Shown here one piece after another: positions 15,330-19,382 of a DNA stretch of 35,285 nucleotides. How positions within the stretch are numbered: position 1 is the stretch's first letter; every line of letters starts with the position of its first letter. Below the pieces are notes generated by a model that saw only the letters and a program-made list of their open reading frames with translations, did not search any database and had not been told where the DNA came from. The stretch comes from an uncultured bacterium (GTDB lineage Bacteria > Patescibacteriota > Minisyncoccia > Phycocordibacterales > CAIJYI01). Location of the stretch: NCBI GenBank assembly GCA_903824855.1, contig CAIJYI010000033.1, forward strand, positions 1 through 35,285. Reading direction: 5' to 3'. The translations under genes were made by a program, and so were the position numbers.

Positions 15330-15535
15330 ACAACGTGGATTCTGAATCAAGTTCAGAATGACGGACTGTGATGACGGACAGGGCGGGTGACAGTGGCCGA
15401 TGTCTTGTTTGTCATTCTGGGCTTGACCCGGAATCCACGTCGTAACGTTTAACGTGAATTCTTGAATCAGGTTCAGAATGACGGACTGTGATGACTGACT
15501 GTGATGCAGACAGGGCGGGTGACAATGGACGATGA
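15330..15535. repeat. REP-like palindromes on the right side of the GT/MTase block
   Basis: There is a type A hairpin (arms 15339-15346/15352-15359), a type B hairpin (15414-15421/15427-15434) and a degenerate type A (15458-15466/15472-15479) with one extra T in the left arm. The spacers contain a different short repeat (ACGGACTGTGATGAC and CAGGGCGGGTGACA), present twice. The B-then-A composite with CCACGTCGTAA.GTTTAACGTG is the same as at 474-538 and 671-741. The 340-bp space 15305-15644 has no gene; besides these repeats I see only a weak terminator. Confidence 0.85.
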
Positions 15536-15644: not shown

Positions 15645-16346
15645 TTAAATATGTGTCAGATACATCATTGACGGCATAAAATAAATGCAATTTGACGCAA
15701 GAGCCCAACCCACAGGCTGTATAACCTGGTCGGTCCCTGACGGACGTAACTGAGTAAGTGTACCCGTTGAAATATCCAAATAAATAAGACCTGCTGTTCC
15801 GGGACCTGTTGACCAAGCCCAAGCATCCAAGCGAAATACCCCGTGGAGCAAAACCCTTTTATTTCCCGTTCCTGAGTCCATCGCCAAGCCGACACAAGGC
15901 GCCGTCGCACTGGTTGTCGCATTCGCGGCAGCAAGAAAACCATTCGCTTTCATAAACAATGGTGCACCGATTCCTTGAACATTCGTTTCAATATCAGCGC
16001 CGATAATGAGACCGGAAGCAGTGGCATCAACCGACGGACCGTTCATCAATTTAATTCCGGCGATGCTATTCATCGGAAGTTCTCCCATATCTAAACGATA
16101 TCGAGAAATCTTAATAGTTTGAGTACCGACTTTCAGGTCACCGCAATTCAGACACGTAAAAAGGAACGTTGGAACGTTCTTTCCTTTGTCGTTTCCGACA
16201 AGAGGAACCCATTTGTGAGTAACACATTCTCTGGATTCTTCTTTTTTGACGATTTTTGTTGGTACCGCTTTTGAAACCTTTTTTGTTTTAGTTGCAGGTT
16301 TTGCTGTACTGATTTTTTCTGTTTCTTTTGGCTTGTTTTTTTTCAT
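15645..16346 (-). CDS. Zinc-ribbon protein with phage-decoration-like C-terminus
   Basis: This 233-aa protein has a Lys/Thr-rich basic N-terminus (1-38), then a likely zinc site made of a Cys-x2-His pair (CVTHKW) and a CxxC pair (CLNCGDLKVG). The TIKISRYRLDMG segment follows. The last 90 residues (VLLHGVFRLDAW, GLIYLDISTGTLTQ, PSGTDQVIQPVGWAL, IYFMPSMMYL) resemble a module I recall from phage tail or capsid-decoration proteins. I chose 16346 because its ATG overlaps the TGA of the upstream gene (ATGA). The frame is open to 16403 but has no support there. It could be a domesticated phage structural protein or a surface protein. No signal peptide is seen. Confidence 0.68.
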   Translation of the reverse strand: MKKNKPKETEKISTAKPATKTKKVSKAVPTKIVKKEESRECVTHKWVPLVGNDKGKNVPTFLFTCLNCGDLKVGTQTIKISRYRLDMGELPMNSIAGIKLMNGPSVDATASGLIIGADIETNVQGIGAPLFMKANGFLAAANATTSATAPCVGLAMDSGTGNKRVLLHGVFRLDAWAWSTGPGTAGLIYLDISTGTLTQLRPSGTDQVIQPVGWALASNCIYFMPSMMYLTHI

Positions 16347-16627
16347 GTTCCTTTGTCGATCTGAAAGATTTCTTCTCCTGATTTGTCGTAAATGGATAAG
16401 CATTTTTCATCTTCGACTACTTTAAAAAATGGTGAAGAACTTTTTTTGTTGAAGGGGTCGGTCAACTCCTTCTTAATATCATTAACCGAGTTGTCTAGAC
16501 GTTTTGAAAGCTTCACGAAGGGATCTTCCAGACGCTTCGAAAACAGTGGACCCATCACTTTCCCCGCGAGAAGTGATCCACCGCCGATGACTATTATTTT
16601 TAGAAAGGTTCTTCTTTCCTTGTCCAT
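16343..16627 (-). CDS. Small protein with twin-arginine (Tat) signal
   Basis: The 94-aa protein starts MDKERRTFLKIIVIGGG, which fits the Tat consensus (S/T)RRxFLK with Glu in the first place and both arginines present (5-6). A moderately hydrophobic, Gly-rich h-region (IIVIGGGSLLAGKVMGPLF) follows, with no clear AxA cleavage site, so it may stay as an anchor. Residues 35-62 form a charged, possibly coiled segment, and the end reads FFKVVEDEKCLSIYDKSGEE. It lies 20 bp downstream of a TatA gene and is translationally coupled to the zinc-ribbon gene. That makes it a likely dedicated Tat substrate of this locus. Its function is unknown. Confidence 0.75.
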   Translation of the reverse strand: MDKERRTFLKIIVIGGGSLLAGKVMGPLFSKRLEDPFVKLSKRLDNSVNDIKKELTDPFNKKSSSPFFKVVEDEKCLSIYDKSGEEIFQIDKGT

Positions 16628-16647: not shown

Positions 16648-16833
16648 CTATTTCGTATCCTTCTCCGCTTTCTTAGTTTCTTTCTCCATCTCAGCTTTTC
16701 CTCTTTTGAATTCCCCGGTAAATCTTCCGAAGCCCCTTGCTGTTTCAGAAATTTTGTCTCCGCGGAAAAACAAAAAAGCGATAGCTACCAAAATTATGGC
16801 GAGCTCGGGGATTCCCAATCCAAATAAATGCAT
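16648..16833 (-). CDS. tatA: Sec-independent translocase subunit TatA
   Basis: This 61-aa protein has the TatA layout: FGLGIPEL, one transmembrane helix (about 9-23), the hinge FFRGDKI in place of FGxKKL, and an amphipathic helix SETARGFGRFTGEFKRG with the GEFK motif. A charged tail follows. TatA oligomers form the transport element for folded twin-arginine substrates together with TatC. It is the second full TatA in this locus, and it directly precedes the twin-arginine protein. Compared with the copy at 17063 it has a single amphipathic helix. Confidence 0.9.
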   Translation of the reverse strand: MHLFGLGIPELAIILVAIAFLFFRGDKISETARGFGRFTGEFKRGKAEMEKETKKAEKDTK

Positions 16834-16875
16834 ATGAATTGTTTTATCTTATAATACTATTGTTAATTTGCAAGC

Positions 16876-16983
16876 TTATTCTTTAGGAGGAGTAGGTGTT
16901 TTTTTTCTTCCGCTCCAGAGAAAATAAAGTACAACAGCTGCGAGAACGATAATGACGATTTCTTGAATTCCAAGACCAAACAT
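16876..16983 (-). CDS. 35-aa TatA-like membrane micropeptide
   Basis: This short frame starts MFGLGIQEIVIIVLAAVV and ends YFLWSGRKKTPTPPKE. The first 20 residues align with the TatA start (FGLGxPEI plus one transmembrane helix), but PE is QE and the amphipathic helix is absent. The topology is probably one transmembrane helix with a short basic tail. It sits between the two tatA genes. A 53-bp stretch (16937-16989) is identical to 17436-17488 in the 28-aa frame, and the copy extends upstream in weaker form (the TTCGACCT block). The conserved frame and its place in the operon argue for a real gene; no ribosome binding site is evident. Confidence 0.65.
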   Translation of the reverse strand: MFGLGIQEIVIIVLAAVVLYFLWSGRKKTPTPPKE

Positions 16984-16989
16984 AAATTT
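16937..16989. repeat. 53-bp direct repeat, copy 1 (micropeptide 5' part)
   Basis: It is identical over 53 bp to 17436-17488 and covers the start codon, the first 16 codons or so, and six upstream bases of the 35-aa micropeptide gene. Weaker similarity extends upstream to about 17030. Confidence 0.9.
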
Positions 16990-17062
16990 AAAATTTTTAT
17001 TTTACGATATTCGACCTCTTAAAAATTAATAATTTGAGAAACACACAGAATGGTGCCCCCTC

Positions 17063-17347
17063 TTAAAATATTTCCAGTTCTTTAATCTCCTTAATTTCAC
17101 TCTCTATCTCTTTTTTCGTTTTTTTGAATTCACCCTTGAATGAACCTATGCTTCTAGCAATTTCGGAAACCTGTTCCTGTCTTTCATTTCTAAAGACTTC
17201 ATTCTCAGCTTCCTCTTTACCTCTCTTGAATTCACCAGTTGCGCGACCAAGACTACGAGCGACATCTGAAACTTTATCCCCACCGGAAAACATGACCATC
17301 ATGGCCACTAAAATCAACACAATTTCGGGAAGTCCTAATCCAAACAT
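17063..17347 (-). CDS. tatA: TatA with duplicated amphipathic region
   Basis: This 94-aa TatA has FGLGLPEIV, one transmembrane helix (about 6-20) and a FSGGDKV hinge. The amphipathic segment VSDVARSLGRATGEFKRGKE (26-45) is followed by a second, very similar one, VSEIARSIGSFKGEFKKTKK (60-79). Ordinary TatA proteins carry one such helix. The rest is a charged, probably coiled tail. It lies between the two micropeptide genes. The duplicated helix may change how TatA rings pack or how they contact the membrane surface; that is inference. Confidence 0.87.
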   Translation of the reverse strand: MFGLGLPEIVLILVAMMVMFSGGDKVSDVARSLGRATGEFKRGKEEAENEVFRNERQEQVSEIARSIGSFKGEFKKTKKEIESEIKEIKELEIF

Positions 17348-17395
17348 ATTCTTATTATATTATTTGTTTCGATTTATTAAATCAATGACGAACTA

Positions 17396-17482
17396 TTATT
17401 TTTTTCTCCCATTCCAAAGGAAGTAGAGAACTACTGCTGCGAGAACGATAATGACGATTTCTTGAATTCCAAGACCAAACAT
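17396..17482 (-). CDS. 28-aa TatA-like membrane micropeptide
   Basis: It starts MFGLGIQEIVIIVLAAVV and ends YFLWNGRKK, so it is the shorter sister of the 35-aa frame. It is essentially a TatA transmembrane helix with a basic stop and no amphipathic helix. It lies between tatC (53 bp away) and the long TatA. In transcription order the locus reads tatC, micropeptide, TatA, micropeptide, TatA, so the pair [micropeptide + TatA] appears to have been duplicated. It is below usual gene-calling limits and would be missed. Confidence 0.62.
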   Translation of the reverse strand: MFGLGIQEIVIIVLAAVVLYFLWNGRKK

Positions 17483-17488
17483 AAATTT
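17436..17488. repeat. 53-bp direct repeat, copy 2 (micropeptide 5' part)
   Basis: It is identical to 16937-16989 and covers the start and most of the transmembrane helix of the 28-aa micropeptide. Downstream of the repeat the two genes differ mainly in silent positions and in the length of the tail. Confidence 0.9.
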
Positions 17489-17534
17489 CACAAATATAGA
17501 TTCTAATAATTCGACCTATAAATTAATATTTCGA

Positions 17535-18293
17535 CTATTCCAATTTCTTAGAAAAATGATATCCGAAATAGTAGAGTAGCATCATTGGAAGAAAAAGCAT
17601 CAACATGGTAACACCTGTTCCGTCTGGAGTAATTATAGCAGACACGATTAGGAATAGCAAAACTGCGTGACGCCATTTGCTTTTCCAATATCGTGATTTG
17701 ATTATTCCGATATAACTTAACAATATCATAAACATCGGAAGCAAGAACATCACGCCAACAGCCATCATCAGACTGAAAACATAAGAAATAAATTCATCAA
17801 GGGAGAAATACGCCACCGCTCCAATGAGAGTCGCATACGGATAAAACATGCGAAAGGTTGTCGGGACGATAATGTAATATGAAAATGCCGAACCGCACAT
17901 AAAGAGAAATATCAACGGCAGAATTATCCATATTACAGCCTTTTTTTCACGGGGAAGGAGTGCCGGAGAAAGATAAACAATAAGTTTATACAAAAAATAC
18001 GGCAAAGTAATCAAAAAACTTAAAAAAACGGAGAGTAAAACCTGCGAGACAAAAGCACTCATAGGGTTAGTAACGACCAATTCTACATCCGGCGGAAGTA
18101 GGTCAATACGGACCTTATTGAAAAACATGATAGAAAAAGAGTTTACGTTAAAAATCGGGAGAAAATATGTCTTTCCCATAAAAAAAACTTCGCCGGGACC
18201 AAAAGCAAACACAAAAAAAGCAGTAGCAACAAAAACATACACCCAATAAAGTATACCTTTCCAAAATATTATTAATTCATCAAGCAAAGTCAT
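17535..18293 (-). CDS. tatC: Sec-independent translocase subunit TatC
   Basis: This 252-aa polytopic membrane protein has the TatC pattern. It opens with a short cytoplasmic TLLDELI start and a first helix. A long outer loop and the NPMSAFVSQVLLSVFLSFLI segment follow, then the conserved LPYFLYKLIVYLSPALLPREKK block. The ITPDG turn and a final hydrophobic helix (MLFLPMMLLYYFGYHF) close the protein. TatC binds the twin-arginine signal and forms the receptor complex. The usual HLxELR start and the Glu of the LLYE end are not obvious, so the protein is divergent. It begins 9 bp after the stop of the secreted protein at 18303 and heads the small-gene series below it. Confidence 0.87.
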   Translation of the reverse strand: MTLLDELIIFWKGILYWVYVFVATAFFVFAFGPGEVFFMGKTYFLPIFNVNSFSIMFFNKVRIDLLPPDVELVVTNPMSAFVSQVLLSVFLSFLITLPYFLYKLIVYLSPALLPREKKAVIWIILPLIFLFMCGSAFSYYIIVPTTFRMFYPYATLIGAVAYFSLDEFISYVFSLMMAVGVMFLLPMFMILLSYIGIIKSRYWKSKWRHAVLLFLIVSAIITPDGTGVTMLMLFLPMMLLYYFGYHFSKKLE

Positions 18294-18302
18294 TTTTGTA
18301 GT

Positions 18303-19382
18303 TTATTGCCCTTCATCAAATTCTAAAATCGGGTTGTCTGTTGTGTCGTACATGATGGTCGTTGACGCATCAATTTGCTTAAGTTTAAATTTATTATTAA
18401 AAATAAGGGCTGTCTCGACGATGATATTACCTCTCCCGATTGGGGTTACTCCGACATCACAACTACCTCCGGAGCAAACCCAGAGATTTTCGTTTTGCAT
18501 TCGAATATTTCCGCCGTTTCCACTATTCGATGAAAGCAAAACATCACCGAGAGGATCAACGTAAAATTCACCAAATACCGTGCCTGATTGACTAACTCGT
18601 AATTGAGCGACACTATCGGCTCCGACGACATTGAATTTACTACCCGGTGCTGACGTACCGACACCGACGTTTCCCGCCGTATTTACGATAAAAGAAGTGT
18701 TTCCTCCCGATGGCCCGACGGCGAATGTTGATGAGGCAAAAATTCCACCCAAAGCATCAATTGAAAAGAGATGATTTAGATTAAAGTCTTGTATCTTAAA
18801 GATATCGGCAATTTGACCGGCGAATGAACGAATAGAAACAGGGGTTGCCGTTGAGCTCGTGGCCTCTATCGTCACTACTGCGTTACTTGAAGGGGTTGTC
18901 GTTCCAAAAGAAGATTGACCGACACCGCTCACCGCTCCTGCAATCTGCGCAAAAACGGTTGATGATATTCTTTGTCTTGGTGTGAGTGTTTCAAAGGTAA
19001 CGTTGTTTGAAGAAACTTCTACCTGAAGGTAAATATCTTTTTCGGTATTGAAATTAAAATTTAAGGCGTCAGGATATCCATTGGCGGTATCTCCGATATT
19101 GGCATTGAAAACACCTTGTTTTACTGTGGTTGTGACAGAAGAAGGACTTCCTGCCGGCCAAAGCTGACTTCCTGAACCAACGGTTTGGTTGTTCCAGATT
19201 GAATATTTAAAATAGTATGTTGTACCGGAACCCCCGACGAGATCTCCTGCCGAATTCGTGAGTCTTCCTTGATAGCTAAAAATTAACGGTGTACCCGCAG
19301 CAAAAAGAGCGCCGGAAACGGACGAGAAAAAGAATAGAATTGCTATCTTCAATATTAAGATTTTTCTATTTTTTATATTCAT
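18303..19382 (-). CDS. Secreted stalk-like surface protein
   Basis: This 359-aa protein has a signal peptide (KILILKIAILFFFSSVSG to ALFAAG, 1-30). The FSYQGRLTNSAGDLVGGSG segment, frequent at the start of secreted Patescibacteria proteins, is followed by a beta-rich domain up to about 150. Next comes a Ser/Thr/Ala-rich stretch with NVGVGTSAPGSKFNVVG, a motif of phage tail-fibre and trimeric stalk proteins. No peptidase S74 chaperone domain is seen at the C-terminus. It is the first gene of the transcript that includes tatC, with a promoter candidate upstream. It probably forms an extracellular fibre or stalk. Export would be through Sec, because no twin-arginine pair is present. Confidence 0.65.
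   Translation of the reverse strand: MNIKNRKILILKIAILFFFSSVSGALFAAGTPLIFSYQGRLTNSAGDLVGGSGTTYYFKYSIWNNQTVGSGSQLWPAGSPSSVTTTVKQGVFNANIGDTANGYPDALNFNFNTEKDIYLQVEVSSNNVTFETLTPRQRISSTVFAQIAGAVSGVGQSSFGTTTPSSNAVVTIEATSSTATPVSIRSFAGQIADIFKIQDFNLNHLFSIDALGGIFASSTFAVGPSGGNTSFIVNTAGNVGVGTSAPGSKFNVVGADSVAQLRVSQSGTVFGEFYVDPLGDVLLSSNSGNGGNIRMQNENLWVCSGGSCDVGVTPIGRGNIIVETALIFNNKFKLKQIDASTTIMYDTTDNPILEFDEGQ

Follow-up and report, generated by a model that had tools for sequence, protein, structure and literature searches.

Short TatA-derived peptides without an amphipathic helix, probably an extra part of a TatB-less Tat system in Patescibacteriota

Members of the TatA family have been described as needing both a transmembrane helix and an amphipathic helix (PMC13186574, PMC6708511). 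Cryo-EM work published in 2026 indicated that TatA competes with TatB for three common sites on TatC, where E8 makes the polar contact. In the solved complexes only the amphipathic helix of TatB clamps the signal peptide, and a TatA1B2C3 assembly was proposed (PMC13323110). At a TatC site a single TatA-family molecule that carries the polar residue can be enough, and residues of the amphipathic helix matter across the whole TatA oligomer (PMC10092561). Whether the core must contain one subunit unlike the rest is a matter of dispute between two 2026 papers: one argues that it must (PMC13323110), the other that it need not, citing TatAC systems without such a subunit (PMC13186574). The Tat systems of CPR bacteria have been described as consisting of TatA and TatC (PMC9166423).

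The window, that is, the whole stretch of 35,285 nucleotides that was analysed, carries on its minus strand, in this order, genes for a 359-aa fibre-like protein, TatC, a 28-aa peptide, a 94-aa TatA, a 35-aa peptide, a 61-aa TatA, a small protein with an RR signal, a 233-aa protein and glycosyltransferases. The first-pass annotation had placed the series micropeptide, TatA, micropeptide, TatA between tatC and a candidate substrate; the series is present in the sequence, and the peptide lengths of 28 and 35 aa and their coordinates agreed on rereading. The peptides are called mini-TatA below.

18303..19382, minus strand: 359-aa predicted Sec-signal surface or fibre-like protein, conserved upstream gene; no Pfam family above cut-off
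17535..18293, minus strand: tatC, 252 aa, the only TatC of the genome (PF00902, E 1.5e-39)
17509..17516, minus strand: GGTCGAAT leader element before mini-TatA 1
17436..17488, minus strand: 53-bp identical stretch, copy 1, from comparison of the two modules
17396..17482, minus strand: mini-TatA copy 1, 28 aa, ATG start, MFGLGIQEIVIIVLAAVVLYFLWNGRKK; homologues in 8 other genomes
17063..17347, minus strand: TatA 1, 94 aa, two tandem amphipathic helices (PF02416, E 3.4e-13, 2 stretches)
17009..17016, minus strand: GGTCGAAT leader element before mini-TatA 2
16937..16989, minus strand: 53-bp identical stretch, copy 2, from the same comparison
16876..16983, minus strand: mini-TatA copy 2, 35 aa, MFGLGIQEIVIIVLAAVVLYFLWSGRKKTPTPPKE
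16648..16833, minus strand: TatA 2, 61 aa (PF02416, E 1.6e-7)
16343..16627, minus strand: RR-signal small protein, 94 aa, starting MDKERRTFLK; RR invariant in homologous loci
15645..16346, minus strand: 233-aa protein, conserved next gene (252 aa if read from the ATG at 16403)

The genome, of 1.1 Mb, has one TatC above cut-off, and its only PF02416 proteins above cut-off are the two TatAs of the window. Its size and gene content point to a member of the CPR (Patescibacteria). An Rfam scan of the locus gave no match. Between a glycosyltransferase gene and the 233-aa gene (window positions of about 15340-15500) lies a repeat around gattctgaatcaagttcagaatgacggactgtgatga, which resembles a dispersed intergenic repeat.

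All ten mini-TatA copies, the two of the window included, begin M-F-(G/D)-L-G-x-x-E8, continue with 15-17 apolar residues and end in a tail whose net charge is +3 to +4. The window peptides were earlier read as FGLGIQEI, a transmembrane helix and a basic tail without an amphipathic helix, and this is what is seen. By a simple residue rule, in which a glycine interrupts the TatA count in G340, the apolar helix after E8 has 15-17 residues in mini-TatA compared with 13 in TatA, and is thus 2-4 residues longer. Aromatic residues and lysines lie at its cytoplasmic end, and the tail is short and rich in Lys and Arg. All ten copies stop 3-11 residues past the helix, with neither glycine hinge nor amphipathic helix. 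A GTG at 17491 would lengthen copy 1 to 31 aa; all relatives start at ATG. Programmed frameshifting on the A-runs of the 28-aa copy was considered and rejected, as it would add few residues and give no fusion to TatA.

Residues 1-20 match the TatA and TatB models, although no copy exceeds any NCBIfam TatA or TatB cut-off, and with PF02416 the score is at most 14.1 bits, below the curated cut-off of 21. Like members of the TatA family, the peptides are encoded beside tatC and tatA. At the level of sequence, TatA descent of residues 1-21 is clear. The E8 of TatB is present and its long clamping amphipathic helix is absent; the E3/K8 pair of TatE is absent too, mini-TatA having G3 (D3 in one copy) and E8. 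PF22282 (CydS) was matched at E 2.7e-4 with 21.2 of the 25 bits needed, which is below cut-off, and the context is a tat operon.

Eight other genomes, from seven other families (G110, G256, G340, G378, G397, G428, G611 and G912), each have a single mini-TatA gene of 27-33 aa immediately upstream of tatA. This makes 10 copies in all, spread over 9 genomes and 8 families, every one adjacent to tatA on its 5' side at a spacing of 11-61 nt. Of the 10 base differences between the two window copies, 9 are synonymous and fall at the third position of a codon (binomial p 3.6e-4), and in four independent pairs of copies from different genomes pS was 0.61 vs a pN of 0.26 (Fisher p 3e-8). The synonymous excess persists after removal of the first eight codons. 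A peptide HMM run against the 397 genomes of the order found full-length copies in 5 (E 1e-16 to 1e-18), all of which carry the same type of TatC, and no further full-length copy; its remaining matches to Tat genes were full TatAs, aligned over residues 1-22 only, with E of at least 3e-11. Conservation in relatives and the balance of synonymous and non-synonymous change were the checks named in the first-pass annotation, and both came out in favour of the frames. Because they are kept in relatives, change mainly at synonymous sites and are specifically recognised by their profile, the mini-TatA frames are, as judged by comparative analysis, real coding genes under purifying selection.

Each genome with mini-TatA has one TatC and one TatA per peptide, and no TatB was detected in these genomes. 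Twelve related TatC loci are without mini-TatA, and 11 of them have an RR protein after tatA. Any TatC at all was found in 30 of the 397 genomes of the order, and none in the nearest genomes of the window's own family. One of the nine genomes, G912, belongs to the same phylum but lies outside the class. Its tatC locus lacks the peptide and tatA. These two genes stand together on another contig (L112), beside two tRNA-like sequences recognised by eye and a homologue of the 233-aa gene. The patchy occurrence of TatC, together with the place that G912 takes in the tree, points to horizontal transfer. Scans of viral contigs with the TatC alignment found no relative; phage records yielded distant TatCs only, some of them from bacterial assemblies in that collection, and one scan of genome contigs gave only distant TatCs of Flavobacteriaceae.

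The nine TatCs of peptide loci group together at a support of 82/72 in one tree and fall into two groups in a reduced tree (AU p 0.243). On these trees a single origin of the peptide loci is neither rejected nor proved. Repeated origin from the local tatA was rejected as an explanation, the peptides being no more similar to their own TatAs than permutation allows (p 0.11).

Two peptide-TatA modules occur only in the genome of the window; elsewhere there is one peptide per TatA. The two window peptides are nearly identical and their TatAs very different. Copy 2 departs from copy 1 by one residue (N/S) and by a 7-residue tail after an indel in an A-run. The 53-bp identical stretch reported earlier was located, and consists of 6 nt of leader and the first 47 nt from the ATG. 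The ten base differences between the copies are all confined to the final 40 of the 87 bases (about 4e-4 by chance), a clustering that points to gene conversion in the 5' portion. An element GGTCGA(A/T)T precedes 8 of the 10 mini-TatA starts at a distance of about 25-40 nt (outside the window in L008, L009, L013, L038, L039, L040 and L011); it also stands before tatA in G110, G256 and G340 and in the peptide-less G107. The sequence GGTCGAATTNNTA is nearly specific to leader-bearing loci (6 of 8 matches in 9 genomes). The sharing of a leader by peptide and tatA suggests that mini-TatA arose by duplication of tatA together with its leader.

The amphipathic helix of the 94-aa TatA is tandemly duplicated (residues 24-51 and 58-85, 14 of 28 identical); one operon hence encodes TatA-type proteins with zero, one and two such helices. 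Directly after the TatA hinge there is E or D in 10 of 10 modules (FFGGEK, FSGGDK, FRGDK, FGNEK), and in none of 11 TatAs from related peptide-less loci. TatC retains the contact threonine T208 and E103, the residue to which the second arginine binds (E. coli numbering). Just 1 of 238 TatC columns separates peptide from peptide-less loci by residue class: window F234, equivalent to E. coli A219, is F in all nine peptide loci and S, T or A in the 12 others. It stands at the beginning of helix 6, a single turn away from Q215 of the docking site. The key positions of the E. coli TatC sequence used for numbering fit the published numbering, and the A219-F234 correspondence agrees with PDB 9dzz_A.

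RR is invariant in the downstream small proteins of 20 of 20 homologous loci, with xRRxFLK in most. The family (L090-L109) is found after tatA or tatC in 19 related loci, is mostly 71-107 aa long and has a short conserved C-terminal motif resembling GEEIFQIDK; the member in the window matched no Pfam family above cut-off. The RR protein is likely to be a dedicated Tat cargo or anchor. No obvious cleavage site was seen in it, and it may stay as a membrane anchor. The host has TatC and TatA, and TatB was not found, as is expected of a TatB-less TatAC translocase. With RR, E103 and T208 all conserved, the TatAC translocase probably works and has a small protein as its dedicated cargo.

The 233-aa protein has a CxxH...CxxC N-terminus and a phage-head-like C-terminal domain, which weakly matches the phage family phrog_12121; in homologues there is a weak match to phrog_673, a head scaffolding protein. 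In G428 the homologous gene (L096, 7247-7848) appears to be split or frameshifted, in two frames. The predicted structures of the 233-aa and 359-aa proteins had pLDDT of 42-44 and were not used.

The explanation that we prefer, tentatively and with somewhat less than even confidence, is that mini-TatA is a TatA-derived third subunit of the TatB-less TatAC translocase, docked in the TatC groove and not clamping the signal peptide. By way of E8 its helix would dock between two TatC subunits, in the groove that the TatA and TatB helices occupy in the solved core complexes. Lacking an amphipathic helix it could not clamp, and it would thus fill one of the three TatC sites as a non-clamping subunit. 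The longer helix, with its cytoplasmic-end aromatics and lysines, may hold it in place. Full-length TatA would take the two clamping, TatB-like sites and also form the membrane-thinning pool. A two-component TatAC system would thereby hard-wire the asymmetry that E. coli obtains from one TatA and two TatB. That mini-TatA represents a new type of Tat component, an amphipathic-helix-free TatA paralogue fixing asymmetry in a TatB-less system, with TatA at the TatB-like sites and the peptide marking the cargo exit side, is a wider claim that we hold more doubtfully.

The F234 column supports docking since it lies near the docking site and tells the two sets of loci apart. Both F234 and the acidic residue at the TatA hinge may nevertheless reflect shared ancestry, and probably represent one or two evolutionary events. 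Several points tell against the docked subunit. Twelve related loci manage without mini-TatA, and TatAC systems of the Bacillus type function with no such part. The split locus of G912 keeps mini-TatA with tatA and not with tatC, and the longer helix could equally mean a role outside the TatC groove. A 2026 review holds that asymmetry is not required at all (PMC13186574).

The main rival is a cap or size limiter, in which mini-TatA would join TatA oligomers, pair its basic tail with the acidic TatA hinge, and stop their growth or reduce membrane thinning, as would suit a very small cargo. It draws on the acidic residue that follows the hinge in the TatAs of all ten modules and in none of the 11 elsewhere, on the travelling of mini-TatA with tatA, on a cargo of only 71-107 aa in most loci, and on a helix whose 2-4 additional residues would counteract the mismatch to which membrane thinning is attributed (PMC13323110). 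In known systems, however, E8 serves TatC docking, not TatA-TatA contacts, the discriminating TatC residue sits in the docking site, and the hinge correlation is limited to one group of loci; we consider a cap unlikely, though it deserves weight. The conservation of fibre-like, RR and phage-head-like proteins and glycosyltransferases around mini-TatA might point to a small membrane peptide with some other task in the locus, such as holding the RR protein or another surface-assembly protein. Such a task appears improbable given the TatA descent of residues 1-21 and the fixed place directly before tatA.

That place, kept at 11-61 nt even after relocation, would also suit a leader peptide whose translation controls that of tatA in cis. 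We give this little credence: the features that are kept (E8, helix and basic tail) are those of a membrane subunit, the spacing varies, Rfam gave no match, and tatA in related loci needs no leader. A minimal TatB, its helix alone sitting at the TatB site and helping to bind the signal peptide, would account for E8, for the weak matches of residues 1-20 to TatB models and for the lack of TatB in the system. The clamp is formed by the amphipathic helix of TatB, and in the system studied TatB-less complexes bind no substrate (PMC13323110), so that this possibility is a very slight one. Least credible are decaying, functionless duplicates of tatA, for all that the 5' part is homologous to tatA and a tandem duplication is present in the window; strong purifying selection that extends to the non-TatA tail contradicts decay, as do retention in 8 families with the same end point in all copies and the lack of any significant excess of similarity to the neighbouring TatA (p 0.11). 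The first-pass annotation had offered a regulator, a cap or a TatB/TatE-like part. Short TatA-like genes without an amphipathic helix are upheld, and sequence does not separate the options. A role simply as TatB is unlikely, since that protein acts by way of its amphipathic helix (PMC13323110), and the E3/K8 signature of TatE (PMC5777986) is lacking.

A literature search that left most subscription journals outside its range found no natural TatA relative without an amphipathic helix and no description of such a subunit. Mini-TatA shares with TatA (PF02416, TIGR01411) the FGLGxxE N-terminus, a single short helix, the place beside tatC and the HMM match of residues 1-20, but it has no hinge or amphipathic helix, a longer helix and a total of only 27-35 aa. 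With TatB (TIGR01410) it shares the glutamate at position 8 and the standing of a second TatA-type part in a tat operon; TatB, however, acts by a long, ordered, clamping amphipathic helix that mini-TatA does not have. Like TatE or TatAc of B. subtilis it would be an extra TatA-family paralogue joining a TatA-containing translocase, but TatE has E3 and K8 and retains its amphipathic helix (PMC5777986), whereas mini-TatA has G3 and E8. Small subunits of the CydS/CydX type are likewise single-helix accessory peptides of about 30 residues; the context and N-terminus of mini-TatA are those of Tat. The two-component TatAC systems of Bacillus also have one TatC, a presumably bifunctional TatA and no TatB, and we know of no third component without an amphipathic helix in them. 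Mini-TatA probably represents an additional component of the export machinery that has been overlooked. A natural TatAC system with a TatA-type subunit reduced to its docking helix would be a direct test case for the dispute over asymmetry, and descriptions of CPR Tat systems as TatA and TatC only (PMC9166423) would miss a part.
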